Shown one piece after another: positions 18,517-63,604 of a stretch of 64,000 nt of DNA (within the stretch, counting starts at the first letter, position 1; every line of letters starts with the position of its first letter). Under the pieces are notes generated by a model. It had not been told where the DNA came from and made no database searches. It saw nothing but the letters and a program-made list of their open reading frames with translations. The position numbers and the translations under genes are program-made. The stretch comes from Cliona cf. orientalis. Lineage: Eukaryota > Porifera > Demospongiae > Clionaida > Clionaidae. The stretch is taken from positions 2,728,001 to 2,792,000 of the forward strand of contig OZ005689.1 in assembly GCA_963930775.1 (NCBI GenBank). Direction: 5' to 3'.

Positions 18517-20465
18517 TTACATAGCAGCTGTTGATGTTTTAGCATGGCCATAGGCCACATTCTCTTTTATGCTAATAGCACTAACTAAAGGTAAAGGATC
18601 CTCGTACATGGCTTCGGCTTCCATGTGTGCACTGCTTCCTGCTCTGTTTGGCGATTGTAGTTCTTTAATCTTTGCTTTGCTCCTTTGTAAGATGATAACG
18701 ATGATTATAGTGAGGACCACTACACTAGTGATCAGCGCCACCACCAGGACCACTACACTAGTTATCAGTGGCACCACTGGGGAACTGATGGTAGGTAAAT
18801 TATTATAATATGCTGTGTTGGTGCACATGTCTGTATTGTTTCTCTCCTGCGACGTTTCACTGTGTACAATAACTGGGTCACTTTCATTACCAATAAGAGT
18901 CCCACAGAGCACAGTTCGTGTAGCAAACGTACACACGCTGTTTCCAGTTGGTATGTCGGTACAAGTGACGTTAGTGTGGTTGGTGTTAGTGGGGCAGCTG
19001 CCACAGTTTGATGCTAGGATGTTGTAATGGATAGCAGGACAGGCAGGGGCAACTGGACTCCAGCTGAATGTAAGATGCCGCGAAGTAAAATTGGCAGTGC
19101 TGATGAAGAGTTTATTTGGTGATGGTAACTGACCTGCAGTGATAACTGCATCTGATCAACAGCTTTAATAGCATATACCATATAGCTAATTTTCGTGGGT
19201 AAACTACTATCTGCGAAAATTTATCCCGAGAAACAAGCATGATTGTACAGTGTCTAATGGGCACGAGTGCGCACGTCCACGAAAATTAAACTTTGAAGAG
19301 TGGCCTTCTGCGAAAATTGGACCCCACGAAAATTTCCCACTATACAGTACACTAGCGTATTGCTAGACTGCAATGTAGTTGTCGTACAAGAGAGGTGCAT
19401 GATTACCTGGAATTATTGTAGAAAACTTATTCGTAATATTTTGTCTATCCAAGGCATCATAAGAACACATGATAGTCTTTCCAGCAGTTTCTGGAGTGAT
19501 GGTGACATTGAGCTGTGAAGTGTAGTTGTTGCCTTGAACACCGAGACTTTGTCCCACTATAGCTCCATTGTTACAACTGCCAATTGGGCCCCCTGTTGGT
19601 GTGAACTGATGATGCTGTAGAAATATCGCATTTTGCTGACAGCCACTAAAAGCAGTTCCTGTCCAGAGAGTACCTCCCGTGTTGCTTCCCTGAACAGTAC
19701 ACCTATAGATCAGCTGGTCACCAGGACAGACACACTGATTCACACCCTCATGACCTAGTATGCCTTCATGTGTAGCACCTACAAGAAAACATGGTATACA
19801 TTTTCTCTTAGAGGAAGGGCCTGAGGCGAGACTTGTATGAGATACATGCATGTACAATGCTTCATATTCATCTGTAATTAATAATTAATAAGAGTCGAAG
19901 TGCCATGTAAAAAAACTCTAACAGTGTAGTCCTCATAAATCCAATCTCAAAATTCATGAAAAATATTTGGGTTTGGGTTTGAATTGTAGTGATCCAATGG
20001 AAAAGAGTAGTATTGAGACTCTATGATGCTTCTTTATGGAGCATTCAACGTACTACATATGAAGCTTTAGAATTGTTCTGAGAGTGATTTAGCTAACTGA
20101 TACTCATAGTTTCATATCTCAAGCAGGATAGTAGTGATCTGCAAATCATCTATGTTCTGTATTTATACAAATATGTATACTTTTGTATACTGAAGCTGGC
20201 TGTAATTTTTTCTAATTAAGCAAAAAGACCAGTTAAAATTTATGTATTAGGTCTATATAGGGAATCTGAAAGAATTTTTTTGAATTAGATGAAAATTCGT
20301 CACAAGCTGATTTGAATTAAGTGAACTACGTACACTGTACTTATTTTTACCATACCTACATACGTACATGTAAGTGTTGTACTTACTGGGTACAAGAAAC
20401 CACATGAGAATCAAACTCCCACTACATCGGATGTTGTGTATGTGGTACCGTACTGGAAGCTGCAT
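18517..20465 (-). CDS. Rec1: Ig-like/FN3-like receptor with tyrosine tail
   Basis: Exons (5' to 3'): 20465-20387, 19778-19407 and 19133-18517, 355 residues, phase 1 introns. The signal peptide opens MQLPVRYHIHN and has a core SGSLILMWFLV. The Ig-like exon has VCPGDQLIY, then TLWTGTAFSGC and the shared NNYTSQLNVTITPETAGK run. The last exon holds the FN3-like domain with NCGSCP, then a membrane helix rich in Val/Ile (LVVALITSVVVLTIIIVI) and a tail with MYEDPLPLVSAISIKENVAYG. It is the closest paralogue of Rec2. A MITE lies in its second intron. Ligand and function are unknown. Confidence 0.82.
19178..19349. mobile_element. MITE in Rec1's second intron
   Basis: The ends CATATAGCTAATTTTCGTGGG and CCCACGAAAATTTCCCACTATA form imperfect inverted repeats. 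Rec2 has no such insert at the matching place (about 21870), so it postdates their split. It resembles the element at 51523. Confidence 0.7.
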
Positions 20466-21219
20466 CGTCTCTACCTTAGTGTAGTAACTTACATGTAGTT
20501 ATTTTTGTTCAAGTATTATAGCTTAAATGCTGTGGTATTGGTTCCCAATTGCGTGTCTCTCCCAAATAGCTCACTCAATGGGAGGTTTATACACTGGTGC
20601 GTTTGTTGCTGAAAATTTTTAGTATGAGCCTTGGAATGATTTGCTTGTACATATATGTATTATTAATTTGCTACAGTACTGGTACATGTGTATCGTACAC
20701 CTAAGTTTGATTCAGAAGTTTAGTTGGTACTTTATACGTTGAGGCCACTGTAGCTCATTGTTATAACTTTCACGTGAGACATCCATGAAGCAGGACCATT
20801 TCATCACTTGGACAGTTGTTAAGATAACTTCCAGTCCATTGTACATGCATTAGCCGTAAATTTATGATTATGATACTTGATAAGAGGTTCCAAAATTGGC
20901 TGCTGTCAACAACTGTTGCACACTACTGTGTTATATTTCGTGTGTCCTTCCAGGAACCAAATAAGAAATATTTATAAGGTTATGATAATTGTTATGCATA
21001 CTAATTATTAAATTTTATTGCATATAATTTTATATGAGTGCATGCATACTTGTACATACATACATACATACGTACATAGTTTCTCCCATATCCATGAAGG
21101 CAATTTTCAAAATAGTGATGTGTACATTATCAACATACATAACAATGTATCTTTATATGGATAAACAATTAGCACACAGTATATACAAATTTGAAGGTAA
21201 GCATTTTCTACAAAAACAA

Positions 21220-22305
21220 TTACATAGCAGTTGTTGATGTTTTAACATGGCCATAGGCAACATTCTCTTTTATGCTAATAGCACTAACTAAAGGTAAAGG
21301 ATCTTCGTACATGGCTTCGGCTTCCATGTGTGCACTGCTTGCTGCTCTGTTTGGCGGTTGTAGTTCTTTAATCCACTTTTCTTTGCTCCTTTGTAAGATA
21401 ACAATGACTGTAGTGAAGACCACTGCGCTAGTGATCAGTGCCACTACCAGGACCACTACACTAGTGATCAGTGCCACCACTAGGGAACTGATGGTAGATA
21501 GATATGCTGTGTTGGTGCACATGTCTGCATTGTTTCTGTCCAGCGACGTTTCAGTGTGTACAATAACTGGGTCACTTTTGTTACCAATAAGAGTCCCACA
21601 GGTCACAGTCTGTATAGCAAATGTGCACACACTATTTTCAGTTGGTACATCAGTACAAGTGACATTGGTGTGGTTGGTGGTAGTGGGGCAGCTGCCACAG
21701 TTTGATGCTAGGATGTTGTAATGGATAGCAGGACAGTCAGGGGCAACTGGACTCCAACTGAAAGTAAAATGCCGCGAAGTGAAATTGGCAGTGCTGATAA
21801 AGAGTTTATTTGGTGATGGTAACTGACCTGCAGTGATAACTATGTCTAATTAACAGCTTTAATAACATATTATACAAGTAGCTAACAAGATACTGCCTAG
21901 TGTATTGCTAGACTTCAATGTAGTTGTGGTACAAGAGAGGTGCATGATTACCTGGAATTATTACAGAAAACTTATTCATAGTATTCTGGCCATCCAAGGC
22001 ATCATATGAACACGTGATAGTCTTTCCAGCAGTTTCTGGAGTGATGGTGACATTGAGCTGTGAAGTGTAGTTGTTGCCTTGAACACCGAGAATTTGTCCC
22101 ACTATAGCTCCATTATTACAAGTTTCAGTTGGGCCTCCCTCTGGTGTGAACTGACTGTGTTGTAGTAGTATCTCATTTTGTAGGCAGCCACTGAAAGCAG
22201 TTCCACTCCAGATAATAGCTCCATTAGCACTTCCCTGAACTGTGCACCCATAGGTTAGCCTATCACCAGAGCAGACACAACCTGGTGTGGCTTCTGACAT
22301 CGTAC
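21220..22305 (-). CDS. Rec2: Ig-like/FN3-like receptor, signal-peptide exon apparently lost
   Basis: Exons 22305-21952 (Ig-like: GCVCSGDRLTYGC, IIWSGTAFSGC) and 21827-21220 (FN3-like, membrane helix, tail MYEDPLPLVSAISIKENVAYG). It is very like Rec1 from Ig exon to 3' flank. Upstream, a relic of the Rec1-type signal exon with its donor is recognisable at about 23838-23737, but its reading frame is interrupted, and about 1.4 kb of transposon sequence separates it from the Ig exon. The gene may now start at the ATG inside the Ig exon (MSEATPGC), which would make it leaderless, or use an unseen exon. Its AATAAA lies at 21014-21019. Confidence 0.7.
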
Positions 22306-25379: not shown

Positions 25380-26945
25380 CTAATGCCGTTTTTGTATATG
25401 ATGGTAGGCAACATTGTCTTGTGTAGTAACAGTACTGATTGAAGGTAGACGTCCAGTGATGTCTTCATACAATGGTTCATCGTCATCCACTCTCCGTTCT
25501 ACTCTATTCAATTCTACGAAGGTAGCTATTGTAGTATTTGCCGCTTTATTTCTCCTCAAGATAATGGTGATCACTGTTATGGAGACCACTACACAGACGA
25601 TCAGAGCTGCTGCTAGAACTCCAATAGATATTGGGTATGCTACCAGTGTATCAGCATTCGAGTTGTGTCTTCCCTCTGTCTCGGTGGTATCGGAGTTGTA
25701 GGTGCTCTGGTTTTCGAATTCTGTCATATCTAGAGGCACATGTAAGATGCCAGTTGGTGGTGTATTTTGTTCTGTAGCATAGAAGGCAATGCTTATTGGA
25801 TCGCTTGCATTACCAGTGATAGTTTCACAGAGTACAGTCTGTACAGCAAAATTGCAGTCGCTGCCGTTGGTTGGTACATTGGTACAAGTGACATTGGTGT
25901 AGCTGGTGGTAGTGGGGCAGCTGCCACAATTTGATGCTAGGATGTTATAGTGGATAGCAGGACAGTCAGGGGCAACTGGACTCCAGCTGAATGTAAGATC
26001 TCGTGAAACAATATTGGCATTACTAATGCAAAGTTCATTTGGTGGTAGTGGTGGTAACTGACCTGCAGCAGTTGAGTGTGATCAATGGCGAATAGCATAC
26101 AAAAAAATTGATAGCTAACACGCTTTCCGCTCAATGTACGTTACTAGAGTGAAATAATACCTGGAATTCTTGTAGATAACTCGATCGTGATATTCTGACC
26201 AGTCAATGGATCGTAAGAACACATGATAGTCTTTCCAGCAGTTTCTGGAGTGATGATAACATTGAGCTGTGAAGTGTAGTTGTTGCCTTGTTCATCAAGA
26301 CTTCGTCCCACTATAGCTCCATTGTTACACATGCCAGTTGGGCCTCCTTCTGGTGTGAACTGATGATGCTGTAGAAATATCGCATTTTGCTGACAGCCAC
26401 TGAAAGCAGTTCCTGTCCAGAGAGTACCTCCCGTGTTACTTCCCTGAACAGTACACCTGTAGATCAGCTGGTCACCAGGACAGACACACTGATTCACACC
26501 CTCATGACCTAGTATGCCTTCAAGTGTAGCACCTACAAGAAAGCATATTGAAAGTTTTCTCCATGAAATTTTGGGCATGCCACATCCATTTATGCGATCA
26601 GTGAACGTTCCACGAATCCTACTGATCCGTGAAAATTTTCTTCCTCGAAAGTTTCCTGGCTCTACAATACACTTTCTCTTAGTCGAGAGGCCTGTGCTAA
26701 TCTATGGACATTTCTAGTACGCTCTATTAGTCAATGGCCCTGCTGCTTTCCTGAGTCTAAGCCTAATTCCAAATTCATATGTAATTAAGAAAGTGCCGTA
26801 TTAAAACTATTTTTTTCTACTGTACGTGCATGTAAGTGTTGTACTTACTGGGTACAAACTTGTAGAAAAACCATAAGAGAATCAAATTCCCAATAGATCC
26901 ACATTGGACGCTGTGTACGTGATACCTTATTGTAAACTGCACCAT
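25380..26945 (-). CDS. Rec3: Ig-like/FN3-like receptor, YEDI tail
   Basis: Exons 26945-26849, 26532-26161 and 26062-25380, 383 residues. The signal peptide has a core GNLILLWFFYKFV. The Ig-like exon is nearly the same as Rec1's (VCPGDQLIYRCTVQG, TLWTGTAFSGC). The FN3-like exon carries an extra Thr/Asn-rich stalk (MTEFENQSTYNSDTTETEG) before the helix. The tail has LYEDITGRLPS and TQDNVAYHH, so the glycine after the distal tyrosine is replaced by histidine. The stop lies five bases from the transposon-like repeat that ends at 25375, so the 3' flank of this gene has been replaced. Confidence 0.82.
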
Positions 26946-27481: not shown

Positions 27482-28659
27482 CTATGTAGTAGTAGTTTTT
27501 GTGTGACCATAAGCAATATTATCTCTTGTTTTGATGACACTGACTGAAGGTATGGGCTCTTCATACATTGATTCCATCTGTGTGCTGCTTACTGCTCTGT
27601 TTGTTGGTTGGGAATCAAGAGCGGCTTTAATCTTTATTTTGCTCCTCATCAATATGATGACTATCACTATTAGCAAGGCTGAGATAGTGACAACCGAAAA
27701 TGTTGCTAGAGAGCTGATAGAAGCAATGTATGCAGTATTAGGATAAAAGATGTGTGTGTTTATGCTGATAGGATTGCTGTATTTTCCTATTACTTTTCTA
27801 CAAATCACACTCTGTATGATAAAATTGCATTCATTGTTGTCAGCTGGTACATCAGTACAAGTGACGTTGGTGTGGTTGGTGGTAGTGGGGCAGCTGCCAC
27901 AGTTTGATGCTAGGATGTTGTAGTGGACAGCGGAACAGTCAGGGGCAACTGAGTTCCACTGAAATGTGAGCTGGTTTGGGTGGAAACCAACCTTGCTAAT
28001 GTAAATTTTATCAGGTGAAGAGGAAAAACGTCCTGCATGAGAAAGTTGGATGCTCATGATATGCACAGAAATAATATGATATCAGAACAAGATTCATACC
28101 TGTTTCGTTGATTATTGTCATTCCTACAACGTTAATAGCCGATCCATTGTCATGAGCACATTCAATAGCATCACCTATCAACTCTGGGGTAACTGTTACA
28201 CTAAGCTGTGAAGTGTATGTTCTATTTCCGCCATGGAGACTCCGAGCAATTATTGCACCATTGTTGCAACTTATTTTGATACCTTGTGGGCGATTGAAGT
28301 GACTGTGGGGCAGAACTATTCCTTGATAACCACCAGTACAGTCAACAAACAAGGAGCTTGTAGGCAGTCCTCTGAAAACTGTAGAACCACCATCTCCACC
28401 CATGATGGTGCACTCGTAGATCACAACATCTCCAAGACAAACACATGTAGAATTCGAGATGATAGTAAATTCTCCACAAACTGTATTTCATTGAGTGTGT
28501 CAAAATTCAATAAATAAGCACAAAATACTCACCATTCCATACATGGAGGCAGGTGGACAGATAGAGGTACCAAACACTCAAATGCAGCCAATCCTATGGA
28601 GACAATAGTATTTTTGTAGCCAATTTGAAAATACTCAGCCTAAGCTTAAAGTTTACCAT
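27482..28659 (-). CDS. Rec4: B-type receptor with split start codon
   Basis: Exons 28659-28657 (ATG only), 28593-28533, 28480-28100 and 28032-27482, 331 residues. The signal segment reads DWLHLSVWYLYLSTCL. The B-type Ig-like exon has CTIMGG, then TVFRGLP in place of the usual T-W-T-G, so the core tryptophan is missing. It also has Leu for Pro in the usual C-P-G-D. The FN3-like exon has the B signature FHPNQLTFQWNS and the common NCGSCP core. The tail has MYEEPIPSVSVIKTRDNIAYG. Closest relative: Rec5, with Rec10 and Rec17 in the same subfamily. Confidence 0.8.
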
Positions 28660-29447: not shown

Positions 29448-30646
29448 CTATATATATGTAGTAGTTTTTGTGTGACCATAAGCAATATTATCTCTTGTGT
29501 TGATGGCACTGACTGAAGGTGTAGGCTCTTCGTACATTGATTCCATCTGTGTGCTGCTTACTACTCTGGTTGTTGCTTGTAGATCAAGAGCAGCTTTATT
29601 ATTTTTTCTGCTCCTCATCAAAATGATGACTATCACTGTTAGCGAGGCCAAGATGCTAACAACCAAAAATGTTGCTAGAGAGCTGATAGAAGCGATGTAT
29701 GCAGTGTTAGTATCTTGCGGATAAAAAGTGTGTGTGTTTATGCTGATGGAATTGCTGAAATTGCCAGTGATATTTCCACAAATCATGGTCTGTAAGGCAA
29801 ACTTGCATTCTTGGTTGTCAGTTGGCACATCAGTACAAGTGACGTTGGTGTTGTTGGTGGTAGTGGGGCAGTTGCCACAGTTTGATGCTAGGATGTTGTA
29901 ATGGACAGCAGGACAGTCAGGGGCAACTGAGTTCCACTGAAATGTGAGCTGGTTTGGGTGGAAACCAACTTTGCTAATATAAATTTTATCAGGTGAAGAG
30001 GAAAAATGTCCTACATGAGGAAGTTGATACTCATGATATACACAGAAATAATATGATTCAGAACAAAAAGATTCACACCTGTATCATTGATTGCAATTCC
30101 TACAACATCGATAATATCCGTTCCATTATCATGAGCACACTCAATTACATCACCTATCAACTCTGGGGTAACAGTTACACTAAGCTGTGAAGTGTATATT
30201 CTATTTCCACCATGGAGACTCCGAGCAATTATTGCACCATTGTTGCAGCTTTTTTTGATACCTTGTGGAAGACTGAAGAGACTATGGGGCAGAACTATTC
30301 TTCCTTGACTACCAGTACAGTCAACAAACAAGGATCTTGTTGGCAGTCCTCTGAAAACTGTAGAACCACCATTTCCACCCATGATGGTGCACTCGTAGAT
30401 CACAACATCTCCAGGACAAATACATGTAGAATTCGAGATGAGAGTAAATATTCCACAAACTGTATTAATTTTTATTGAGTGTGTCAAAATTTAATAAATA
30501 AGCACAAAAACACTCACCAGTTCGTACATGGAGGCAGGTGGACAGAGAGAGGTACCAAATACTCAAATGCAGCCAATTCTATGGAATCAATAGTATTTTT
30601 GTAGCCAATTTGAAAAATTTATCAGCCTAAGCTAAGAGTTTACCAT
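29448..30646 (-). CDS. Rec5: B-type receptor with split start codon
   Basis: Exons 30646-30644 (ATG only), 30578-30518, 30459-30079 and 30010-29448, 335 residues. The signal segment is NWLHLSIWYLSLSTCL. The Ig-like exon has CICPGDVVIYECTIMGG and TVFRGLPT without the core Trp. The FN3-like exon has the FHPNQLTFQWNS start, but NCGNCP instead of NCGSCP. The tail is MYEEPTPSVSAINTRDNIAYG. It is a tandem duplicate of Rec4, including the introns. Confidence 0.8.
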
Positions 30647-32021: not shown

Positions 32022-33155
32022 CTATGTAGTAGTTGTTTTTGTGTGGCCGTAAGCAATATTATCTCTTGTCTTGATGGCACTGACTGAAGGTATAGGCTCT
32101 TCATACATTGATTCCATCTGTGTGTTGCTTTCTGCTCTGTTTGTTGCTTGGGAATCAAGAGCTGCTTTAATCCTTATTCTGCTTCTCATCAGAATGATAA
32201 CTATCACTATTAGCAAGGCAGAGATGCTACCAATCGAAAATGTTGCTATAGAACTGATAGACACAATGTATGCAGTATTGGTACCTCGAGGATAAAAGGT
32301 GTGTATGTTCGGATTGCTGAAATTGCCAGTGATATTTCCACAAACCACAGTCTGTATGGCAAAATTGCATTCATTGTTATCAGCTGGTACATTAGTACAA
32401 GTGACATTGGTGTGGTTGGTGGTAGTGGGGCAGCTGCCACAGTTTGATGCTAGGATGTTGTAGTGGACAGCAGGACAGTCAGGGGCAACTGGACTCCAGC
32501 TGAATGTTAGTTGTCGTAGCGTTAAGTCAACATTACTGATTCCTAGTGTGTTGGGTGGCAAGAGTGGCCCTATTGTGTTGAGTATCAGTGATTAAGCAAA
32601 GACATGAAGTTGCAAGTGTCAAACCTGTTATTGTAGGAATTGTTAAAGTGAAGAGGCGGTTGATACGAAGCCCATTATCACTACCACATTCAATGGTCTT
32701 TCCAACTGTGTCAGGTGTGACAGAGACATTGAGTTGTGAAGTGTAGTTGTTGCCCTCAATGCTAAGGCTCCTGGCCACTATAGCTCCATTGTTACACGTC
32801 CCAGAAGTTCCAGTATCAAAGCGACTGTGAATCAATATTATCTTATTATACTTGAATGAACAATTAAAAGCTGATCCAGTCCAGATAGTGACTCCTCCTC
32901 CTCCCGTAACAGTACACTCGTATGATAAGGTATCACCAGGACAGACACATCCACTGGTAAGAACTGCATCAATAAATTTCGCATTTCTATCGGCACATAT
33001 ATTTGCATTAAGCGTCATACTGAGTGCATTCGTTTCGGTGTGCATAATTATATAGCAAATACTTGAACTACCAAGTATCACTGACCTGATCCTGATCCGG
33101 CTGATTGCCTGCAGTAGTTGAGGAAGAGCACTGAAAGAATAGGTAGCCTTATCAT
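32022..33155 (-). CDS. Rec6: A-type receptor
   Basis: Exons 33155-33086, 32963-32625 and 32569-32022, 318 residues. The signal peptide is MIRLPILSVLFLNYC followed by RQSAGSGSG. Unlike its relatives it lacks the MATxTEL extension, because the upstream ATG is replaced. The Ig-like exon has GCVCPGDTLSYECTVTGGGG and VTIWTGSAFNC with the tryptophan kept. The last exon has LRQLTFSWSPVAPDCP, the NCGSCP core, a membrane helix (ISALLIVIVIILM) and the tail MYEEPIPSVSAIKTRDNIAYG. Confidence 0.82.
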
Positions 33156-34446: not shown

Positions 34447-35287
34447 CTATGTAGTAGTTGTTTTTGTGTGACCATAGGCAATATTATCTCTTGTCTTGAT
34501 GTCACTGACTGAAGGTGTAGGATCTTCATACATTGATTCCATCTGTATGCTGCTTTCTGCTCTGTTTGTTGCTTGGGAATCAAGAGCAGTTTTAATCCTT
34601 ATTCTGCTTCTCATCAAAATGATAACTATCACTATTACCAAGGCAGAGATGCTAACAATCGAAAATGTTGCTAAAGAACTGATAGACACAATGTATGCAG
34701 TGTTGGTACCTCAAGGATAAAAGGTGCGTGTGTTCATGCCGATTAGATTGCTGAAGTTGCCAGTGATATTTCCACGAACCACAGTCTGTACGGCAAACTT
34801 GCATTCATTGTTGTCAGCTGGTACATCAGTGCAAGTGACAGTGGTGTAGGGTGTGGTAGTGGGGCAGCTGCCACAGTTTGATGCTAGGATGTTGTAATGG
34901 ACAGCAGGGCAGTCAGTGGCAACTGGACTCCAGCTGAATGTTAGTTATCTTAGTGATAAGTCAGCATTACCAATTCCTAGTGTATTGGGTGGCAAGAGTG
35001 GCCCTCCACTCGTATGACAAGGTGTCACCAGGACAGACACATCCACTGGTAAGAACTGCATCAATAAATTTGTAATGTACATTTTCATTAAGAATTACTG
35101 AATGATTCAATGTGCTTAAGTTAACTGTAAGGCTGATCCTACCTATGATAGCTACAAGCAAGCACTTAGCTACCAATTAACACTGACCTGATTCTGATCC
35201 AGTTGATTGTCTGAAGTAGATGATAGAGAGCACTAAATAGGTGGGTAGCCTTGCCATTAGTTGTCGGAGCTCTGTCATAGTAGCCAT
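34447..35287 (-). pseudogene. Rec7: broken A-type receptor
   Basis: The signal exon 35287-35188 is intact (MATMTELRQLMARLP). The Ig-like exon starts normally at GCVCPGDTLSYE but is joined by a deletion straight into the start of the FN3-like exon (near 35005), losing most of the Ig-like domain and the intron between them. The FN3-like frame then meets stops (near 34948 and 34714). Only the membrane and tail part (MYEDPTPSVSDIKTRDNIAYG) remains open. This is a host receptor pseudogene. Confidence 0.8.
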
Positions 35288-42963: not shown

Positions 42964-43211
42964 TTATGTAGTAGTTGTTTTTGTGTGGCCATAAGCAATA
43001 TTATCTCTTGTGTTGATGGCACTGACTGAAGGTGTAGGCTCTTCATACATTGATTCCATCTGTGTGCTGCTTTCTGCTCTGGTTGTTGCTTGTGAATCAA
43101 GAGCAGCTTTAATCTTTATTCTGCTCCTCATGATAATCACTATTAGCAAGGCACAGATGGTGACGATTGAAAATATTGCTAGAAAGCTGATAGAAGCAAT
43201 GTATGCAGTGT

Positions 43212-47330: not shown

Positions 47331-48775
47331 TCATCTATTGATGACTGCCATTATTTGTTGTGTGCAGCCATAAGCAACATTGTCTTGTGTGTTAATAGTA
47401 CTATCTAAAGATATGAGGTCGTTGACTTCTTCATACATTGGTACATCATGCGTAGCTCCTATTGATGTTTTTGTGTGGCCGTAGGCAACATTGTCCTGTG
47501 TACTGATAACACAAACTGGAGGTAAAGGACCAGTGTCATTTTGATACGTTGGCACATCTTGTGTAATGCCTGGTCCCCTTGTTGATGTTCTTGTGTGGCC
47601 ATAGGCAACATTGTCCTGTGTATTGATGGCACTGACTGAAATTGAAGGACTGAGCATGACATTTCCATACACTGGTTCATTATCTGTGATTTCTTCTGCT
47701 CTGTTTGACTGTATGGACGCAGCTCTAATCTTTAGTTTACTCTTTTTTAAGAAAATGGCTATCACTGTTAAGGATGCCACTGCACCCACAAACAAAGCTG
47801 TTGCTAGGCGACTGAAAGATATGATGTACACTCGACTTGTAGCTGAGCTATTTATTCCTATTGTTTCTGATGTACTTAAATTATGTGTGCCTTGATTTTC
47901 TATCGAATGTAGGCTATCGTTTGGTGTTCCTACTGTTGATTCTGTAGTATAGAAGGTGATATGTAGTGGATCACTTATGTTGCCAGCGATATTTCCGCAG
48001 ACCACAGTTTGAACAGCAAAGGTGCATATGCTATCGTTGGTGGGTACATCTGTGTAAGTTACGTTGGTGTGATTGGTAGTAGTGGGGCAGCTGCCACAGT
48101 TTAATGCCAAGATGTTGTAATGGATAGCAGGACAGTCAGGGACAACTGGACTCCAGCTGAAAGTTAGTTCCCTTGAGGAAATTGTTGAATTTGAGTCCAC
48201 TAGGAGGTGAAAATGGACCTACAGTGGAGTTTTTGATGCTGATTAAACAACTGTTGCTAGCTATATGAGATAACTAACCTGTTGTAGGAATTTGTAAAGT
48301 GAAGATAAGGGTAGCAATGAGTCCGTCATCATATGAACATTCAGTAGTCTTTCCAGCTGTGTTTGATGTGACTGTGACATTGAGCTGTGAAGTGAAGTTA
48401 TTACCCTCAGCAGACAGGCTTTGTCCCACTATAGCTCCATTATTGCATGAGCCATAATCCCCCTTAGTGGATGAAAAACAACTGTGGAGCAGTAAAATCA
48501 TGTAGTTGCTGTTTGAACAGTTAAATGCTGATCCAGTCCAGATAGTAGATCCTGCTCCCACAGCAGTACACTCATAGGTTAAAGTATCACCAGGACAGGC
48601 ACATCCACTCACGAATAATGCTGCAGTATCAGATACCTTTGTATACACATACATGTACATAGGTACGTACAACATGATAATTTTCAAGTATGACACTCTT
48701 ACTTGATTCAAACATTTGCTGTAAGATGATAAGAATGAGTAATGATGGTGTAGCAGCTGATTGACTGAGGTTCAT
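47331..48775 (-). CDS. Rec13: receptor with three-module tail and shifted acceptor
   Basis: Exons 48775-48703, 48620-48279 and 48199-47331, 427 residues. The signal peptide is MNLSQSAATPSLLILIILQQ. The Ig-like exon has GCACPGDTLTYECTAVG and STIWTGSAFNC. Compared with Rec19, the start of the last exon lacks eight bases, which puts the usual acceptor (48218) out of frame. A second acceptor, CCTCCTAG at 48200, restores the frame (VDSNSTISSRELTF), so I chose it. The tail has YGNVMLSP...DNVAYGHT, YQNDTGPL...DNVAYGHT and MYEEVNDL...DNVAYGCT. If the old acceptor is still used, the gene would be frame-shifted. Confidence 0.7.
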
Positions 48776-49468: not shown

Positions 49469-50786
49469 TTATCTCGCTGTTGTCATCTGAACGTGGCCAT
49501 GGCCATAGGCAACATTATCCTGTGTATTGATGACACTCTCTGAAGGTAATGGTCCAGTGATATCTTCATACATTGGTTCCACATGTATGGTCTCTCCTGG
49601 GCTGGCTGACTGTTGAAGAGCAGCCTCTAACTTTGCTTTACTCCTTATCAAGATGATGGTTATTACAGTTATGAAGATCACTATGCAGACCATCAGAGCT
49701 GTTGCTAGGAGACCAATGGATATTATGTATTCTATATTGGTGCTCATGTTTTCTGTGGGGTCCAAGTTATATGATCCTGGGTTGTCTGTTGGACTTGAAT
49801 TGTTTGTTAGTGTTAGTGCTGGAGATTCCAAGGCATATAAAGTGATGGTAATTACGTCACTTACATTGCCAGTGATACTTCCGCAGACCACAGTCTGCAC
49901 AGCAAATATGCACTCAGTTCCATTGAATGATGTATCAGTACAGGTGACAGTGGTGTGGTTGGTGGTAATGGGGCAGCTGCCACAGTTTAATGCTAGGATG
50001 TTGTAATGGATAGTAGGACAGTCAGAGGCAACTGGACTCCAGCTAAAACTTAGTTGTCTTTGCAAAAAGTCGAGGTTATTAATCCCAAGTATAGTAGGTA
50101 GTAAAAATGGGCCTATAGTGATGTGTTGTTAGTATAAATTAATGTGTACATGTGATTATTTTGATCATTTATACAAAGATGACTAACCTATTATTTTAGG
50201 AATTATTGAAGAGAAGATAAGCATTTCATGTGTCAAATTATAATGAAGACAGACTACTTTTTTTCCAGCTGTGTGAGGTGTGACAGTGATATTGAGTTGA
50301 GAAATGTAGTTGTTGCCCTCAACGCTAAGGATCCTTGCCACTATAGCTCCATTATTACATGACATTGTCTGATAAGTTCCAGTATTGAAGTAACTGTGGA
50401 GCAATACTATCTCATTCGTACTGCAATCATTAAGTGCTGATCCGGTCCAGATAGTGGCTCCTGTTTCTGTACCAATAATAGTGCACTCATATGACAAGGT
50501 ATCACCAGGACAGACACATCCACTAGTAGGTACTGCATCTATTTTGCATATTCTCATTAGTACATATATTTCCATTAAGTATTGTACTGAGTGAACTCGT
50601 TTTGGTGTGCATAATGATATGCATCATGTCATGGCAGCTAAGAGCAAACACAATTATAAGGTTAATCATGGTAGCTACAAGCAATCGTTTAGCTACCAAG
50701 CAACACTGACCTGACCCTGATCCAGCTGATTGTCTGAAGTAGATGAGGGAGAGCACTATTTCAAAATAAGTGGCTAGCCTAACCAT
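49469..50786 (-). CDS. Rec14: A-type receptor with Ser/Thr stalk, YEDI tail
   Basis: Exons 50786-50711, 50532-50188 and 50112-49469, 354 residues. The signal peptide is MVRLATYFEIVLSLIYF followed by RQSAGSGSG. The Ig-like exon has GCVCPGDTLSYECTIIG and ATIWTGSALNDC. The last exon has QRQLSFSWSPVASDCP, NCGSCP, a stalk with NNSSPTDNPGS, the helix ALMVCIVIFITVITIIL and the tail MYEDITGPLPSESVINTQDN followed by VAYGHG. It is the intact counterpart of Rec20. Confidence 0.83.
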
Positions 50787-51734: not shown

Positions 51735-52352
51735 TTTCGTTATAGTTGTGTACAGCCATAAGCAACATTGTCTTGTGTGTCAATAGTACATGTACTGACC
51801 AAAGGTATGGGATCAATGACTTTTTCATATATTGGTATCTCTTGCATAGCTCTTGCTCCTCTTGTTGATGTTTTTGCATGGCCATAGGCGACATTGTCCT
51901 GTGTATTGATGGCACTGACTGAAATTGAAGGACTGAGCGTGACATTTTCATCATTATGAGTGGTTTCCTCCGACGGTGGATCAATACTATCTCCTTGCTG
52001 TCACAATAATTAAAAACTGATCCTGTCCAGACAGTGATGCCTCTTCCAGTAACAGTACACTCATATGACAAGGTGTCACCAGGACAGATACATCCACTGG
52101 TAGGTACTGCATCAATAAATTTACATTTCCTTCAGTACATACGTGTACATCTGTGTTAATCATTGCTGAGTCAATTCATTTCAGTGTGCATAATTATAAG
52201 GCTGATCCTATGGTAGCTACAAGCAAACCCCTAGCTACCTATTAATACTGACCTGATCCTGATCCAGCTGACTGTCTGAAGTAGATGAGGAAGAGCACTA
52301 AATAGATGGGTAGCCTAACTCTTAATTGACAGAGCACTGTCGCAGTAGCCAT
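51735..52352 (-). pseudogene. Rec15: receptor pseudogene with internal deletion
   Basis: The signal exon 52352-52253 is intact (MATATVLCQLRVRLPIYLVL). The Ig-like exon begins at 52106 (GCICPGDTLSYECTVTGRG, TVWTGSVFNYC), but near 51970 it is joined directly to the cytoplasmic tail of a Rec12/Rec13-type gene in the wrong frame. The rest of the Ig-like domain, the FN3-like domain and the membrane helix are missing. Tail remnants with DNVAYG coding survive to the MITE at 51734. This is a deletion product of a three-module gene. Confidence 0.8.
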
Positions 52353-52996: not shown

Positions 52997-54182
52997 CTAT
53001 GTAGTAGTTGTTTTTGTGTGGCCATAAGCAATATTATCTCTTGTCTTGATAGCACTGACTGAAGGTATAGGCTCTTCATACATTGATTCCATCTGTGTGC
53101 TGCTTTCTGCTCTGTTTGTTCCCTGGGAATCAAGAGCTGCTTTAATCTTTATTCTGCTCCTCATCGATATGATAACTATCACTATTAGTAAGGCAGAGAT
53201 GCTGATGACTGAAAATGTTGCTAGAAAAGTGATAGAAGCAACGTATGCAGTATTGGGATAAAAAATGTGTGTGTTTATGCTGATGGAATTGCTGAAATTG
53301 CCAGTGATATTTCCACAAATTACAGTCTGTATGGCAAAATTGCATTCTTGATTGTCAGTTGGCACATCAGTACAAGTGACATTGGTGTGGTTGGTGGTAG
53401 TGGGGCAGCTGCCACAGTTTGAAGCTAGGATGTTGTAATGAACAGTAGGACAATCTGGGGCAACTGGACTCCAGCTAAATATTAATTGTCGTAGTGATAT
53501 TATGGCAGCATTACTGATTCCAAGTGTGTTGGGTGGCAAAAGTGCCCCTATTGTCATATTATATGTAAGTATAAGTGAATAAGCAAAGGTATGAAATATT
53601 ATGCAAGCGGCTAACCTGTTATTGGAACTATTGAAGTGAAGATAAGTATGTCATGTGTCCAATTATAATTAAGACATTCAATAGTCTTTCCAGCTGTGTC
53701 AGGTGTGACTGTGACATTGAGTTGTGAATTTAAATTGTTATCCTCAACAGAAAGGATCCTTGCTACTATAGCTCCGTTGCAATATTTTAGTTGACCATTT
53801 CTGTTATACAAGAAGGCATTGTGGGACAGTGCTATCTCGTTGCCTGCACTTGGACACTGAAAAGCACTTCCTGTCCAGATAGTAGCTGCTCCTCTCATAA
53901 CATGTACAGTACATTCATAGGTCAAAATATTACCAGGACAGACACATCCACTCATAGATACTGCTTTAGTAATACATAGAAAGAATTTAACATGCAAACC
54001 TCATGAATGTATACGTGCATGTAAGTATAACATTGATAAAATTAATAACAATGTATTAAGCTGAATTTCTAGCAGATCCTTGTGTATAAACTCTTACCTG
54101 ATCCTGATCCACTGATGAATAAGAGCACTGAAAGAATAGGTAGCTGCACCATTAATTGACAGAGCTCTGTCGCAGAAGCCAT
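52997..54182 (-). CDS. Rec16: A-type receptor, YEEP tail
   Basis: Exons 54182-54098, 53963-53616 and 53547-52997, 327 residues. The signal peptide is MASATELCQLMVQLPILSVL. The Ig-like exon has GCVCPGNILTYECTVHV and ATIWTGSAFQC. The last exon has RQLIFSWSPVAPDCP, NCGSCP, the helix ISALLIVIVIISM and the tail MYEEPIPSVSAIKTRDNIAYG. The front half (signal and Ig-like) is like Rec9 and Rec21, while the tail is like Rec6, so it also looks recombined. Confidence 0.83.
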
Positions 54183-54574: not shown

Positions 54575-55743
54575 CTAGATGTTCGAGGATTTTAGAATTT
54601 TATTATTCAAAAGATATTTTCCCAAGAGATTGAGTATCAAGAGTGAGGTAAAAAGACATGCCACTGCACCCACAAACAAAGTTGTTGCTAGGTTACTGAA
54701 AAATATGATATATAATTTAGTTCTGGCTGGGTTATTCATCCCCATCGATTCTGTTGTATTTGAATTACATGTGCCCTGATTTTCTGTTGGATTTAGGCTG
54801 TCAGTTGGTGTGTTTACTCTTGATTCTGTAGTATAGAGGGTGATATTTATTGGGTCACTTATGTTGCCAATTATATTTCCACAGACCACAGTTTGAACAG
54901 CAAAGGTGCATATGCTATCATTGGTAGGTACCTCAGTACAAGTGACATTGGTGTGGTTGGTGGTAGTGGGGCAGCTGCCACAGTTTGATGCTAGGATGTT
55001 GTAATAGACAGCAGGACAGTCAGGGGCAACTGAGTTCCACTGAAATGTGAGCTGGTTTGGGTGGAAACCAACCTTGCTAATATAAATATTATCAGGTATA
55101 GAGAAAGAGTGTCCTGCATGAGGAAATTGGATGCTCATGATATGCACAGAGAAATACCTAATATGATTCAGAACAAGATTCACACCTGTAGTATTGATTA
55201 TTGCCATTCCTACAACTTCAATAGCAATTCCAGTATCATGAACACACTCAATTACATCACCTATTAACTCTGAGGTAACTGTTACACTAAGCTGTGAACT
55301 ATAAGTGCCATTTCCACCTTGGAGACTCCGAGCAATTATAGCACCATTGTTGCAACTTCTTTTGGTACCTTGTAGGCGATAGAACTGACTATGGGGCAAA
55401 GCCAGTCTATCAATATTCCCAGTGCAGTTAATAAATTTGAAGGAGCGTCCTCTAAAAATTGTGGACCCACCATGTCCACCCATGATGGTGCACTCGTAGA
55501 TCAGAACATCTCCAGGACAAGTACATGTAAAATTTGAGATGAGAGTAAATTCTCCATAAACTGTATTTCATTGAGTGTGTCAAAATTTAGTAAACAAGCA
55601 CAGCAATACTCACCAGTCCGTACATGGAGGCAGGTGGACAGATAGAGGTACCAAACACTCAGATGCAGCCAATCCTATGGAGACAATAGTGTTTTTATAG
55701 CCAATTTGAAAATACTAATTAGCCTGAGCTAAAAGTTTACCAT
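54575..55743 (-). CDS. Rec17: B-type receptor without signalling tail
   Basis: Exons 55743-55741 (ATG only), 55674-55614, 55560-55186 and 55113-54575, 325 residues. The signal segment, Ig-like exon (CTCPGDVLIYECTIMGGHGG, TIFRGRSF), FN3-like domain and stalk match Rec10 closely. Inside the membrane helix (ATTLFVGAVAC) the similarity to Rec10 stops, and the sequence jumps to what is 3' spacer in Rec9/Rec10 (39760-39860). The frame therefore ends after a short novel end (GKYLLNNKILKSSNI) with no tyrosine. The deletion is about 400 bases. The product would be a tail-less membrane form, able to bind but not to signal. Confidence 0.8.
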
Positions 55744-56985: not shown

Positions 56986-58187
56986 CTATGTAGTAGTTGT
57001 TTTTGTGTGCCCATAAGCAATATTATCTCTTGTCTTGATGGCACTGACTGAAGGTATAGGCTCCTCATACATTGATTCCATCTGTGTGCTGCTTACTACT
57101 CTGGTTGTTGCTTGTAGATCAAGAGCAGCTTTAATCTTTGCTTTGCTCCTCATCAATATGACTATCACTATTAGCAAGGCTGACATACTGACAACATAAA
57201 ATGTTGCTAGAGAGCTGATAGAAGCAATGTATGCAGTGTTGGTATCTCTAGGATAAAAGATGTGTTTATTTATACTGATGGAGTTGCCAGTGATATTTCC
57301 ACAAACCACAGTCTGTATGGCAAAATTGCATTCATTGTTATCAGCTGGTACATCAGTACAAGTGACAGTGGTGTGGTTGGTGGAAGTGGAGCAGCTGCCA
57401 CAGTTTGATGCTAGGATGTTGTAGTCAATAACAGGACATTCAGGGGCAACTGGACTCCAAATGAATGTTAGTTGTCTTAGAGATAAGTCAACATTACTAA
57501 TTCCTAGTATGTTGGGTGGCCTTACTGTGAGGAGCATCAATAATAAAGTAAAGGCATGAAATTGGTTTACTATGTACATGACAAACCTGTTACTGGAGGA
57601 ATTGTCCAAGTAAATAGACGTTTGTATTGTGTCCCATTATCACTACCACATTCAATGGTCTTTCCAGCTGTGTCTGGTGTGACAGTGATGTTGAGTTGTG
57701 AAGTATAGTTGTTGCCATCAACAGAAAGGCTCCTTGCCATTATAGTTCCATTGTTACGGATCCGATAAGTTCCTAAATTGAAAAAACGATGGAGCAATAC
57801 TATCTCATTAAAAATGCAATTAAGCGCTGATCCGGTCCAGATAGTGGCTCCTCTTTCCGTATCAGTAACAGTGCACTTGTATGACAAGGTATCACCAGGA
57901 CAGACACATCCACTGATAGGTACTGCATCGATAAATTTCTCTCTTAATTATTTTTATTTAGCAGTATACATATGTACATTTGTGTTTGAGCATTGCTGAG
58001 TGAATTCATTTCAGTACGCATAATAATAATAATAATGCTGAGATTAAGGTAGGTACAAGCAAGCCCTCAGCTACTAATTACACTGACCTGATCCTGATCC
58101 AGCTGATTGTCTGAAGTAGTTGAGGAAGAGCACTGAAAGAATAGGTAACCTTACCATAAAATTACGGAGCTCTGTCACAGTAGCCAT
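56986..58187 (-). CDS. Rec18: A-type receptor, intact twin of Rec11
   Basis: Exons 58187-58088, 57922-57587 and 57524-56986, 324 residues. The signal peptide is MATVTELRNFMVRLPILSVL. The Ig-like exon has GCVCPGDTLSYKCTVTDTE and ATIWTGSALNC. The usual CNNG is RNNG, so one Cys is lost here. The last exon uses the acceptor CTCACAG (57525), giving VRPPNILGISN, then NCGSCS in place of NCGSCP, the helix and the tail MYEEPIPSVSAIKTRDNIAYG. Rec11 shows what this locus looks like after two transposon hits. Confidence 0.82.
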
Positions 58188-58510: not shown

Positions 58511-59947
58511 CTATAATTGTTGTGTACAGCCATAAGCGACATTATCTTGTGTGCCAATAGTACTGACCAAAGGTATGGGATCAGTGACTTCTTCATACAT
58601 TGGTACATCCTGTATAGCTCCTGCTCCTCTTGTTTTGGTTTGGCCGTAGGCAACATTATCTTGTGTACTGATAATACCAACAGGATTAGTGTCATTTTGA
58701 TACATTGGGACATTTTGCGTAGCTCTTGCTCCTCTTATTGATATTCTTGTGTGGCCATAGGCAACATTGTCCTGTGTATTGATGGCACTGACTGAAGGTG
58801 ATGGACTGAGCGTGATATTTTCATAATCTGATTCTCTGAGTGTGGTGCTTTCTGCTCTGTTTGACTGCTCAAACACAGTTCTAATCTTTGCTTTACTCTT
58901 TTTTAAAAAAACTGCTATCACTATGAAGGATGTCACTGCACCCACAAACAAAGCTGTTGCTAGGCAACTGAAAGATATGATGTACACACGACTTATAGCT
59001 GAGTTGTTCATCTCTCTTGTACTTGAATTATGTGTTTCTTGACTTTCTGTTGAATGTAGGCTATCATTTGGTGTTTTTACTGTTGATTCTGTAGTATAGA
59101 AGGTGATATTTAGTGGGTCACTTATGTTGCCAGTGATATTTCCACAGACCACAGTTTGAACAGCAAAGGTGCATGTGCTATCGTTGGTAGGTACATCTGT
59201 GCAAGTGACATTGGTATGGTTGGTGATAGTGGGGCAGCTACCACAGTTTGATGCTGAGATGTTGTAATGGATAGCACGACAGTCAGGAGCAACTGGACTC
59301 CAACTGAATGTTAGTTCCCTTGAGGAATAGTCAATGTTGTTGAATTTGAGTCCACTTGGAGGTGAAAATGGACCTACAGTGGAGTTATTGATGCTGATTA
59401 AACAACTATCTCAATCTTAGTTAGCTATATGAGATAACTAACCTGTTATAGGAATTTGTGAAGTGAAGACAAGAGTAGCAATGAGCCCATCATCATATAA
59501 ACATTCAATAGTCTTTCCGGCTGTGTCGGGAGTGATAGTAACATTTAGCTGTGAAGTGTAGTTGTTGCCCTCAGCAGAAAGGCTTTGTCCCACTATAGCT
59601 CCATTGTTACATGATCCATAATCTCCCTTAGTGGATGAAAAACGAGTATGAAGTAGTGAAATCTCATGGTTGCTATTTGAACAGTTGAATGCTGATCCAG
59701 TCCAGATGGTAAATCCTGCTCCCACAACAGTACGCTCATAGGTTAAGGTATCACCAGGACAGGCACATCCACTCACAAATAGTGCTGTAGTATCGGATAC
59801 CTCAATATACATTATAGCTACTGCTAATAGTTTCCAAGTACTAATCTTATGTATGACACTCTTACTTGATTCAAATGCTTGTTGTAAGGTGATAAGAATG
59901 AGTACTAAACCTGACCATGATATAGCGGCAGGTTGACTGAAGTTCAT
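58511..59947 (-). CDS. Rec19: three-module receptor, chimera of Rec13-type front and Rec12-type tail
   Basis: Exons 59947-59866, 59784-59443 and 59373-58511, 428 residues. The signal peptide (MNFSQPAAISWSGLVLILIT), the Ig-like exon (GCACPGDTLTYERTVVGAG) and the start of the FN3-like exon (GPFSPPSGLKFNN) are of Rec13 type. The B-strand Cys of the Ig-like domain is Arg here (YERT). The tail (YENITLSPSPS, ISIRGARATQNVPMYQNDTN, MYEEVTDP) is almost the same as Rec12's. The changeover lies within the last exon. Three DNVAYG modules are kept. Confidence 0.83.
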
Positions 59948-60553: not shown

Positions 60554-61531
60554 TTATCTCGCTGTTGTCATCTGAGTGTGACCATGGCCATAGGCAACAT
60601 TATCCTGTGTATTGATGGCACTCTCTGAAGGTATTGGTCTAGTGATATCTTCATACATTGGCTCCACATGTATGACTTCTCCTTGGCTGGCTGATTGTTG
60701 AACTGCAGCCTCTATCTTTGCTTTACTCCTTATCAAGATGATGGATGTTACTATTACGAACACCACTATAGAGACCATCAGAACTGTTGCTAGGAGACCA
60801 ATGGATATTACGTATTCTGTGTTAGTGCACAAACTATCCATATCTCTTGTCTCAGTACTATCTAAACTACGTGTTCCTTGGGTTTCTATTGGATAGAAGC
60901 TTATGGTTTCTGTGGGTTTCACATTGTATGATTCCAGGTTATCTGTTGGGATCAAAGACCTTATTGGTGTCATTGTAAGATATGAAGTATTGTAAGCAGT
61001 TGAATAGTTTTCATGATATGAAGCAGTTGAATAGTTTTCATGATATGCTGTAGTAATGAATGAATGAATTGTTCAAAATACAAATGCCGTATTTACCAGC
61101 AAATAAGCACATGCATTTATAGCTCCACAGGAAGAAGATCTGTGCTTAATAATGAAATGCACCCATTAGCGAGGTGTGCCAATTAAAACTAGCTACGTCC
61201 CAAGTACGCATGCGCATTCATTGTATCAATGGCCTTATTTAAGGGGCATGGCCAACTGCTCGATTGTTTGCATTGCCGTAATATTATTCAATCCAGCTCA
61301 AAATGGTGCTCATTTCTTGACGCTGCTTGAAGAAACTGAGGAGCCACGAATATAGAAGCATGAAAATTAATTCTGAAGGCCAAATGCTACATTTTACGAA
61401 AAGTTTTACCCCCACAAATTACCCGCTATATGATATCTCTTATGCCTACCTGATCCAACTTCCTGTTGCAAGAAGATAAGCAATGATATTAAAATTGAAG
61501 ACAACCGAATTACCAGGTTCACAGTAGCCAT
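60554..61531 (-). CDS. Rec20: receptor without Ig-like and FN3-like domains
   Basis: Exons 61531-61450 (signal peptide MATVNLVIRLSSILISLLIF) and 61047-60554, 191 residues. The second exon opens after TACTACAG in the phase the first needs, and encodes a duplicated YHENYSTA(S/Y) unit, a Thr/Ser-rich stalk (ETISFYPIETQGTRSLDSTE), the membrane helix (VLMVSIVVFVIVTSIIL) and the tail MYEDITRPIPSESAINTQDN followed by VAYGHG. Tail and 3' flank match Rec14, but both extracellular domains are gone. The frame stays open, so this looks like a short mucin-like signalling protein and not simple debris. The intron holds a transposon-like segment (61088-61437). Confidence 0.72.
61088..61437. mobile_element. 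Transposon-like segment in the Rec20 intron
   Basis: The right end has CGAAAAGTTTTACCCCCACA then ATTACCCGCTATA, close to the ends of the 51523 MITE. The left end CCGTATTTACCAGCAAAT differs, so it may be a composite. The boundaries are approximate. Confidence 0.5.
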
Positions 61532-62395
61532 TGAGAACACCAGCACTTCTCAACATCGCCTGCCAGCTCAGTAGTTGATTACAGATTGTGTACAAGTACT
61601 AGAATATTACAAAATCCATGGTCATAACTTGTGCATAACATGGTACAGAAAATGTACATTAATACATAGTGGTTATTTACAATTAATATCATGTGCATTC
61701 AAATTGACTACATGGATTCAAAAATATATTGTCCCAAAATTATTATTTTTAGTTGTGTAGCTGGATTGTGTTACAACAACCGGGATATTGTCTTTCAAAC
61801 CGGGGAGAATTAATTTTAATGCCTAAACCAGCTAAGCAAATGTGTAGTACCCCAATCAACCTTCCCAAAGGCATATAGAAGTATGCATGCAAGTATTTTT
61901 AATTGGCTCGCAATTGATACACAATCTGTAGCATTTAGTCTAATGATACTGTTTTCCCAAATGAACACTACTGTGTTGTTTATTTAAACAGTGTATAAGG
62001 CATCTGTTTTGAAGGATGCAGTTCTAAATTTTTGTGATTGTATTACCACTTTTGAATCATACAATGTCAAATTTGCTAGCCAATATGCATACATTCAAGA
62101 TGGGAAGAGAAGACAATATTGAATTTGCTGTATGCACTGTATGTGATTTGTCATGAATTAGTGAACTTAAGCATTGACCAATGATAATCCTCTAGCTATC
62201 TCACATTGAGTACACTTGATAGGAAATTCTTTGCGGTATTCCCAATTGATAAAACATGTTGTAATGACAGAGATATAATGCATTAGCTATACTTGATGGC
62301 TATTCTACCTATACGGATGTTACATAGAGTATATGATATAGTTATATTTGATTATGGGTTTGCATCATAATAGAGGCATTTGTCTATGAGTTCCA
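61532..62395. other. Spacer between Rec20 and Rec21
   Basis: From about 61910 it matches 37290-38150. A 61-codon + strand frame at 61575 has no support. No gene seen. Confidence 0.6.
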
Positions 62396-63604
62396 TCAGT
62401 TCTGTGATTCTTGCAATGTAGTTTTTGTGTATCCATAAGCAACATTATCTTGTGTATCGATAGCAGGGACTGAAGGCAAAGGTCCAGTGACATCTTCATA
62501 CATTGACTCCATATTATGTGTACTGCTGCTTCTTGCTAATTGTGGTTCTAAAACAGCTTTAGCCTTTACTTTGTTTCTTCTCAAGATAGTAACTATCACT
62601 GCTATGAAAACCACTACGCTGACCATTAAAGCAGTTGCTAGAGAGCTGATGGATATCATACATGCTGTATTAGTATTTATGCTGATCGAGTTGCTGATGT
62701 TACTTGTGATGTTTCCACAGACCACAGTTTGAACAGCAAAGGTACACCCGCTATAATATGGTGGTACATCAGTACAAGTGACTATGGTATGGTTGGTGGT
62801 AGTGGGGCAGCTGCCACAGTTTGATGCTAGGATGTTGTAATGGACAGCAGGACAGTTAGGGGCAACTGGACTCCAGGCGAATGTTAGTTGTCTTAGTGAT
62901 ATATCAGCATTACTGATTCCTCTTGTGTAGGGTGGTAAAAGTGTCCCTATTGTGGTAAATTATTATTAACAATTAAATAACATTGTGAAATTGATTAGTT
63001 TGCAAGTTACAGACCTATTTCAGGAATTATTGATGAGAAGTGATGCTTTGAACGTATCCCATTATCACTGGCACATTCAATGGTCTTTCCAGCTATATCA
63101 TGTGTGACAGTGACGTTGAGTTGTGAAGTGTAAATGTACGTGTAGTAATTATCCTCAACGGAAAGCATCCTTGCTACAATAGCTCCATTGTTGCAATAAC
63201 TTAGTTGACCACTTCTGTTGTACGAGAATCGGCTGTGGAGAAATACTATCTGGTTTTGTGCAAGTGGGCAGTGAAGAGCACTTCCAGTCCAGATAGTAGA
63301 CACTTCTCCCATAACAGTACATTCATAGGTCAAAGTATCACCAGGACAGACACATCCACCAATGGATACTGCTTTAGTAATACATAGAAAGAATTAATTT
63401 TAATATGCAAACCGTATGAATGTATGCATGCATGTAAGTATAACATTGATAAATTCACGACAATATAAATGATTGTATTAAGCTGAATTTCTAGCAGATC
63501 CTTGTGTATAAACTCTTACCTGATCCTGATCCACTGATGAATAAGAGCACTGAAAGAATAGGTAGCCACACCATTAGTTGACAGAGCTCTGTCGCAGAAG
63601 CCAT
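62396..63604 (-). CDS. Rec21: A-type receptor, YEDV tail
   Basis: Exons 63604-63520, 63371-63015 and 62946-62396, 330 residues. The signal peptide is MASATELCQLMVWLPILSVL ending ISGSGSG. The in-frame upstream ATG was chosen because other family members conserve it. The Ig-like exon has GCVCPGDTLTYECTVMG and STIWTGSALHC, plus a three-residue insertion (YTYIYTSQLNV). The last exon has RQLTFAWSPVAPNCP, NCGSCP, the helix ALMVSVVVFIAVIVTIL and the tail MYEDVTGPLPSVPAIDTQDN followed by VAYGYT. Closest relative: Rec9. Confidence 0.84.

Follow-up and report, generated by a model that had tools for sequence, protein, structure and literature searches.

Single-pass receptors with V-type immunoglobulin (Ig) domains form clustered families of innate receptors in vertebrates, namely NITR, TREM and CD300-like. 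Foreign tissue is rejected by sponges, which also have dense microbial partners to manage; to our knowledge, the recognition receptors of sponges are poorly known. In Hydractinia, the Alr genes are described as clustered single-pass receptors with Ig-superfamily folds and a V-set-like domain, with many copies and pseudogenes in one interval (PMC11067881, PMC11999971, PMC13119343). Here we analyse a receptor gene array in a 64,000-nucleotide stretch of the sponge Cliona cf. orientalis (hereafter the window; contig C1:2,728,001-2,792,000 of a 216.8-Mb assembly with 149 contigs). The array is a very large cluster of genes for antibody-fold surface receptors and represents a strongly expanded family. 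The focus is on a short block within its third exon, the hinge, at which the relationships among the genes break.

Results

The genes encode single-pass receptors with a signal peptide, one V-set Ig domain, one Cys-rich FN3 domain, an uncharged membrane helix and a tyrosine tail. A block of about 48 bp around the peptide NCGSCPTTTN, midway through the FN3 coding part of exon 3, has nearly identical DNA in C1 copies separated by up to 12 Mb. Between paralogues, synonymous divergence (pS) along exon 3 drops from 0.6 to 0.06 at the block and is back at 0.6 within some 20 codons to either side (0.4-0.8 further out). Even in the 776 of 2016 pairs that were saturated on both flanks, the pS of the core was still 0.06-0.11, and in far pairs the left edge of the block was sharp, with a pS of 0.68 at -24 to -12 and 0.15 at -12 to 0. 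The 23-bp core, which contains the palindrome GGCAGCTGCC, was exact in 67 of 90 core hits; in the window, 11 of the 19 cores were exact, six had one mismatch and two had two. Mean pairwise identity of the core was 0.972 in the 24 hits outside the set of intact exons and 0.976 in the 66 hits inside it. Among the outside hits, an in-frame stop near the core was present in only six, with a divergence of 0.204 in the flank and 0.090 in the core.

Genome-wide, the core pattern (up to two mismatches) was found at 192 places compared to 13 for a reversed control, and a 36-mer (up to three mismatches) at 140 places compared to none for the control, with many copies on both strands of C1. Among the matches listed (the first 100 or so of each search), all were located on C1, and remote C1 copies carry the core as well (13 core hits). 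We further compared seven copies from other chromosomes (two from C2 and one each from C8, C11, C13, C15 and C18). Six of them had 4-8 mismatches in the 23 bp, with a pooled core pS of 0.53-0.62 (six non-redundant copies). The C8 copy differed at three core positions and had a core pS of 0.03-0.31. No relatives of the core were found in viral contigs. Among the matches listed from the ENA and JGI protein data, 86 of 120 contained NCGSCPTTTN; this search favours shared words, and the proteins from a 2.92-Mb contig are this genome's own.

Several simple causes of the block were considered. Codon bias was rejected; the codons of the core are rare elsewhere in these exons. Recent duplication alone is rejected by the 776 far pairs. 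Protein constraint alone is disfavoured: in most relatives on other chromosomes the peptide varies and synonymous sites are saturated. The core sequence AACTGTG resembles, at six of seven bases, a reversed V(D)J heptamer; no nonamer was seen by eye, and we give this likeness no weight.

The genes are mosaics of two modules that meet at the block. Pairwise distances for 65 genes correlated at 0.60-0.71 among segments left of the core and at 0.21-0.44 among those to the right, and at 0.11-0.23 across it. With shorter segments (61 paired genes) the respective values were 0.34-0.83, 0.22-0.38 and -0.23 to 0.24. Average-linkage clustering of the 65 genes gave 13 types on the 5' side and 10 on the 3' side, which occur in 23 combinations; the nearest neighbour was the same on both sides in 29 genes and clearly different in 15. 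Strong mosaicism was detected in 91 of 2080 pairs. Of the respective change points, 60 were located within 100 bp left of the core, six at +50 to +100, 16 at +250 to +350 and nine elsewhere. When one pair per type combination was taken as representative (n = 40), 34 change points fell within -110 to +60. The types had been derived here from flanks more than 60 bp away, a definition that biases towards central change points but could not conceal a break in intron 2. Pairs that share the 3' type changed at -85 to -33 in 23 of 25 cases, and pairs that share the 5' type at +28 to +65 in 12 of 15.

Likelihoods under fixed trees were computed for 60 of the 61 paired genes. The 3' alignment lost 2697 log-likelihood units when placed on the 5' tree, about 39% of what is lost if the tips are shuffled; for the 5' alignment on the 3' tree the loss was 1980 (about 28%). 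For the first half of the Ig exon, the loss on a tree from the second half and the 5' part of FN3 was 329 units (about 10%), and 497 in the reverse case. Two proteins encoded on a 1.39-Mb contig in the ENA data may be compared with single genes of the array. P0001 is 97.6% identical to gene 267k in the 3' half and 79.8% in the Ig domain. The closest Ig domain to that of P0021 is found in gene 194k (86.2%; 3' half only 42.5%), and its closest 3' half in gene 122k (87.8%; Ig 80.2%).

As a separate observation, the weaker cluster of change points at +250 to +350 (16 of 91) coincides with a mild dip of pS (0.25) within the tail, and tails may have a second joint there.

We then followed the divergence of the core with that of its flanks. 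In young duplicates, flank pS values of 0.016, 0.056, 0.098 and 0.149 corresponded to core values of 0.020, 0.025, 0.065 and 0.114, based on 41 gene-sharing and hence non-independent pairs with 31 synonymous differences. Over flank values from 0.2 to 0.74, core pS remained on a plateau of 0.05-0.08; this time course drops from its lower bins those pairs whose flanks differ by at least 0.25, and the bins given include 1884 of 1953 pairs. A comparison of nearest neighbours is in agreement, with flank and core divergence both 0.022 for the 25 closest intact copies, and 0.267 and 0.096 for the five most distant. Thus, the core tracks the flank in young pairs and then reaches a plateau, which suggests homogenisation more than selection.

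Structure prediction and structural matching assigned to the Ig exon a two-sheet V-type beta sandwich with the Cys pair of strands B and F, i.e. a V-set Ig domain, with NITR10 and TREM2 among the structural matches. The first 90 or so residues of exon 3 adopt an FN3-like fold. The typical tail has one or more tyrosine pairs of the form YE[ED]x ... [DE]N[VI]AYG; 45 of 66 tails have two tyrosines and the others one or three to six. The motif [DE]N[VI]AY is present in 64 of the 66, and the membrane helix is without charge in 65 of 66. Neither an immunoreceptor tyrosine-based activation motif (ITAM; YxxI/L x6-12 YxxI/L) nor NPxY was found in any of the 66 tails. The pattern [SILV]xYxx[ILV], similar to the inhibitory counterpart of this motif (ITIM), matched in 27 of 66; the conserved [DE]N[VI]AYG tyrosine deviates from it. 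The tail tyrosine motif is strongly constrained and the Ig domain loosely: in pairs with a pS of 0.03-0.25, the ratio of non-synonymous to synonymous divergence (pN/pS) was 0.10 in the DNIAYGHT window, the lowest of either exon, and had a median of 0.62 in the Ig domain, with 0.9-1.6 at residues 93-112. In the Ig domain, pN exceeded pS in five of 144 close pairs.

To determine the extent of the array, profile hidden Markov models (HMMs) made from the window exons were run over a gap-free 300 kb (0 N), in which neighbouring loci were joined to the window; exons with at least 100 bits were regarded as strong. This revealed 105 Ig matches (80 strong) and 147 matches to FN3, membrane helix and tail (93 strong), all on the minus strand; the plus strand of the 300 kb had no profile match at E ≤ 0.001. 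An earlier note on this DNA, made from the letters alone, had described 21 Ig-like/FN3-like receptor copies on one strand. The strand is borne out, and the number is right if units are counted, since the 21 minus-strand units at 18.5-63.4 kb comprise 19 with an FN3 core, one gene with stalk, membrane helix and tail lacking Ig and FN3, and one tail fragment (51.7-52.0 kb); the same interval contains 18 Ig exons with at least 100 bits and two Ig fragments. The folds that the note had expected are those returned by structure prediction, its single-pass receptors with tyrosine tails agree with the tail counts above, and full models indeed stand beside broken units. Its three-part design (signal exon, Ig exon, and one exon for FN3, helix and tail) applies to the 10 of 18 window Ig models that are complete by scoring threshold, nine of which we regard as confident, and misses the stalk-only class. 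Phase-1 introns were read by eye for both introns of two copies (46.9 and 33.1 kb); the automatic gene models required phase 1 and hence are no test of it. The size of 45 kb proved too small: the array continues to at least C1:3.02 Mb, and relatives occur further along C1 and on other contigs.

Across the 300 kb, 43 of the 80 strong Ig models are complete by the scoring threshold, with signal exon, Ig exon and exon 3, although at least four of these 43 have a truncated exon 3; signal peptides were judged from hydropathy alone. The stalk-only class has six copies, one in the window and five at C1:2.79-3.00 Mb. They combine a candidate signal exon (MATVNLV...) with a stalk rich in Ser and Thr, a membrane helix and a tyrosine tail, and their frames for helix and tail are open. 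At least one lone Ig exon was found (C1:2.8835 Mb). Genome searches with one Ig exon and one FN3 exon gave at least 150 and at least 172 matches, the best 150 of 391 and of 397 candidates, respectively, being scored. Related copies are mostly located on C1 (2.74-5.6, 9.3 and 15.2 Mb) and more distant ones on other contigs. One such diverged relative (C13:5617001-5620500, L037) has one Ig and one FN3 exon plus an additional tail in which YEEL and NVSY motifs occur.

Between C1:2.785 and 3.028 Mb, segmental blocks of 1.5-9 kb with 93-98.7% identity recur at a spacing of roughly 60-80 kb; therefore, larger units were duplicated too. These blocks contain receptor-free spacers with long Ser/Pro-rich open reading frames without a Pfam match.

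Table 1 Features of the window. Positions without a contig prefix, here and in the text, are window positions; array units were located with profile HMMs.
Feature	Position	Strand	Remarks
Calcium-binding EGF domains	343-2073	+	followed by a possible membrane protein exon
Mitochondrial ribosomal protein S30 (PDCD9)	3575-4582	-	C-terminal part
Ankyrin-repeat gene	4889-9593	+	upstream of the array; ANKHD1-like by eye
Receptor array, window part	18517-63604	-	21 units, 18 strong Ig exons, 19 FN3 cores
Last unit	18517-19778	-	left edge; weak signal candidate 20465-20387
Ig and FN3-helix-tail exons	21220-22281	-	weak signal candidate 22671-22602
Ig and FN3-helix-tail exons	25380-26532	-	weak signal candidate 26945-26849
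Ig and FN3-helix-tail exons	27482-28480	-	FTLISNSTC Ig type; signal exon not found
Ig and FN3-helix-tail exons	29448-30459	-	FTLISNSTC Ig type; signal exon not found
Full model	32022-33155	-	exon 3 (32025-32567) used as structure prediction input
Hinge core	32422-32444	-	exact 23-mer (example)
Broken unit	34450-35041	-	FN3-helix-tail with stops, Ig remnant; core 23-mer exact
Ig and FN3-helix-tail exons	35957-36996	-	signal exon not found
Full model	38151-39314	-	short tail
Ig and FN3-helix-tail exons	40021-41182	-	signal exon not found
Broken unit	42964-44377	-	Ig exon, FN3 part, helix/tail apart
Full model	45389-46872	-	long tail; mosaic: 3' half resembles copy 59784, 5' half differs
Hinge core	46113-46135	-	exact 23-mer
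Full model	47331-48775	-	long tail
Full model	49469-50786	-	
Broken unit	51740-52092	-	Ig fragment and tail fragments, without core
Full model	52997-54152	-	short tail
Ig and FN3 exons	54575-55560	-	profile match stops in membrane helix, usual tail missing; signal exon not found
Full model	56986-58157	-	short tail
Full model	58511-59947	-	long tail with three DN[VI]AY repeats
Stalk-only gene	60554-61531	-	signal exon, Ser/Thr-rich stalk, membrane helix, Tyr tail; no Ig/FN3
Full model	62396-63574	-	signal exon 63574-63520, V-Ig exon 63368-63015, FN3-helix-tail exon 62946-62396
Hinge core	62799-62821	-	exact 23-mer (example)

The units and neighbouring genes of the window are listed in Table 1. 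A signal exon for the FTLISNSTC Ig type was looked for in particular and not found. Mitochondrial DNA is present on two contigs, C111 and C149, where COX1 with eight in-frame TGA codons lies beside a gene for the ATP-synthase c subunit, as expected for sponge mitochondria. A mitochondrial atp9 with TGA read as Trp is a hallmark of sponges. Contig C111 probably holds more than one copy of the mitochondrial circle, because the ATP-synthase c gene is present twice, 19.6 kb apart.

Discussion

We consider it rather probable that the array consists of two-module receptor genes which are re-paired by non-allelic recombination or conversion at the hinge. The 5' module would comprise the signal exon, the V-Ig exon and the first part of FN3, and the 3' module the remaining FN3, the stalk, the membrane helix and the tail, the two joining at the 48-bp block. 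Non-allelic recombination and conversion, mainly among C1 copies, would act where copies still match, keep the block near-identical and repeatedly swap both flanks, so that recognition heads might be re-paired with signalling tails over evolutionary time. The block would stay the preferred site of exchange because the flanks diverge while it remains identical. Identity of a segment independent of flank divergence, together with flank exchange, is the pattern of concerted evolution, which selection on the block could also produce; conversion or crossover is the process that we infer. Several points weigh against it. Conversion tracts are usually far longer than the block, whose left edge is as sharp as would be expected of a functional DNA or RNA element. 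The close C8 copy indicates that homogenisation is not strictly confined to C1, and exchange occurs downstream too, as the weak intercorrelation of the 3' segments and the change points at +250 to +350 reveal. The definition of types, the small non-independent sample of young pairs and the omission of pairs with unequal flanks limit the respective analyses, and the few pairs with pN above pS give no clear positive selection in the Ig domain.

The core could instead be an element that functions at the nucleotide level and is kept by purifying selection, for example a small-RNA target common to the family or an exonic regulatory element, with mosaicism located there since it is the only shared stretch. 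The sharp block with its fixed rare codons, the palindrome, the equal conservation of hits inside and outside the intact-exon set and a core peptide nearly invariant in 11 sequences (the query and 10 relatives) would all fit. Constant selection is disfavoured because it predicts a core/flank ratio independent of age, whereas the ratio found is age-dependent; moreover, the core is absent from six of the seven relatives on other chromosomes. Dead copies test this explanation weakly, as so few of the outside hits carry a stop. We regard it as unlikely on balance and leave it the weight it has because of the sharp left edge and the close C8 copy; the latter, and the fact that only six of 24 outside hits are shown to be broken, lowered our confidence in recombination at the hinge and raised that in selection.

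A short, nearly invariant and palindromic block at a module joint, with many copies on both C1 strands, may also recall a programmed recombination signal, possibly somatic, that assembles V-Ig heads with tails like the Pneumocystis MSG junction element. In the germ line, however, most strong Ig exons already have a matching 3' half, as the 61 paired gene models show, and germ-line events suffice for the mosaics. An expression site was not recognised, although no systematic search for silent cassettes was made and a lone Ig exon exists (see above). We regard this reading as very improbable. The broader proposal that the hinge is a dedicated signal for site-directed recombination at a fixed coding joint in a non-bilaterian animal, in the germ line and possibly somatically, i.e. 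a combinatorial system unrelated to V(D)J, appears highly doubtful to us. The earlier note had pointed out that signal and Ig exons could be swapped through phase-1 introns without loss of frame. Intron phases are compatible in the copies read by hand, and the signal types MVRLP.. and MNLSQ.. are each paired with more than one 5' type. Yet distances stay correlated across intron 2 (0.54-0.67), none of the 40 representative change points lies in that intron (two are near the end of the Ig exon, at -223 and -215), and the break is located in the exon 3 core, so exon swapping can hardly be the main mode. Tandem haplotigs and false homogenisation by assembly or polishing could be suspected from the recurring segmental blocks; given several spaced copies with differing identities, the gap-free sequence, core variation between young duplicates and the core peptide in ENA and JGI proteins, an artefact is extremely unlikely.

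Judged from sequence, the combination of V-Ig head, FN3 stem and constrained tyrosine tail suggests a recognition receptor with phosphotyrosine signalling, in which the V-Ig domain may bind a variable ligand and the tail may signal through phosphotyrosine. Recognition of self and non-self or of microbes is the most likely role, with about an even chance of being correct; allorecognition, microbe recognition and adhesion would each be compatible with the results. These V-Ig/FN3 receptors are a concrete candidate for sponge recognition receptors, and V-type Ig receptor clusters become testable in a lineage far from vertebrates. The hinge offers a testable mechanism of diversity, in which short near-identical coding joints would re-pair recognition and signalling halves.

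Compared to the closest described systems, the array resembles the Alr complex, by architecture alone, in being a cluster of single-pass receptors of V-set Ig type with pseudogenes. In Alr proteins the V-set domain is followed by an I-set domain, whereas the second domain here matches FN3 in a search that leaves I-set possible. Alr alleles are, in addition, polymorphic and govern fusion or rejection; the present analysis covers one assembly. With NITR, TREM and CD300-like receptors it shares the V-set fold, clustering and a single membrane pass; those families are without FN3, the tails here are without ITAM, and the shared fold does not show descent. Pneumocystis MSG genes with their conserved recombination junction element and trypanosome VSG genes with their conserved flanks likewise have a short conserved element where variable cassettes recombine. 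There, these elements serve switching at an expression site, whereas complete tandem genes without evidence of switching are found here. In clustered protocadherins, too, segments of tandem paralogues are homogenised by gene conversion beside divergent recognition domains; in the sponge array the homogenised part is the 48-bp block at a module joint within one small exon, with exchange of the flanks. Clustered V-Ig receptors are therefore a known kind, and what is new here, without a claim of being unpublished, lies in a plan that joins V-Ig to FN3, in the copy number and in the coding hinge.

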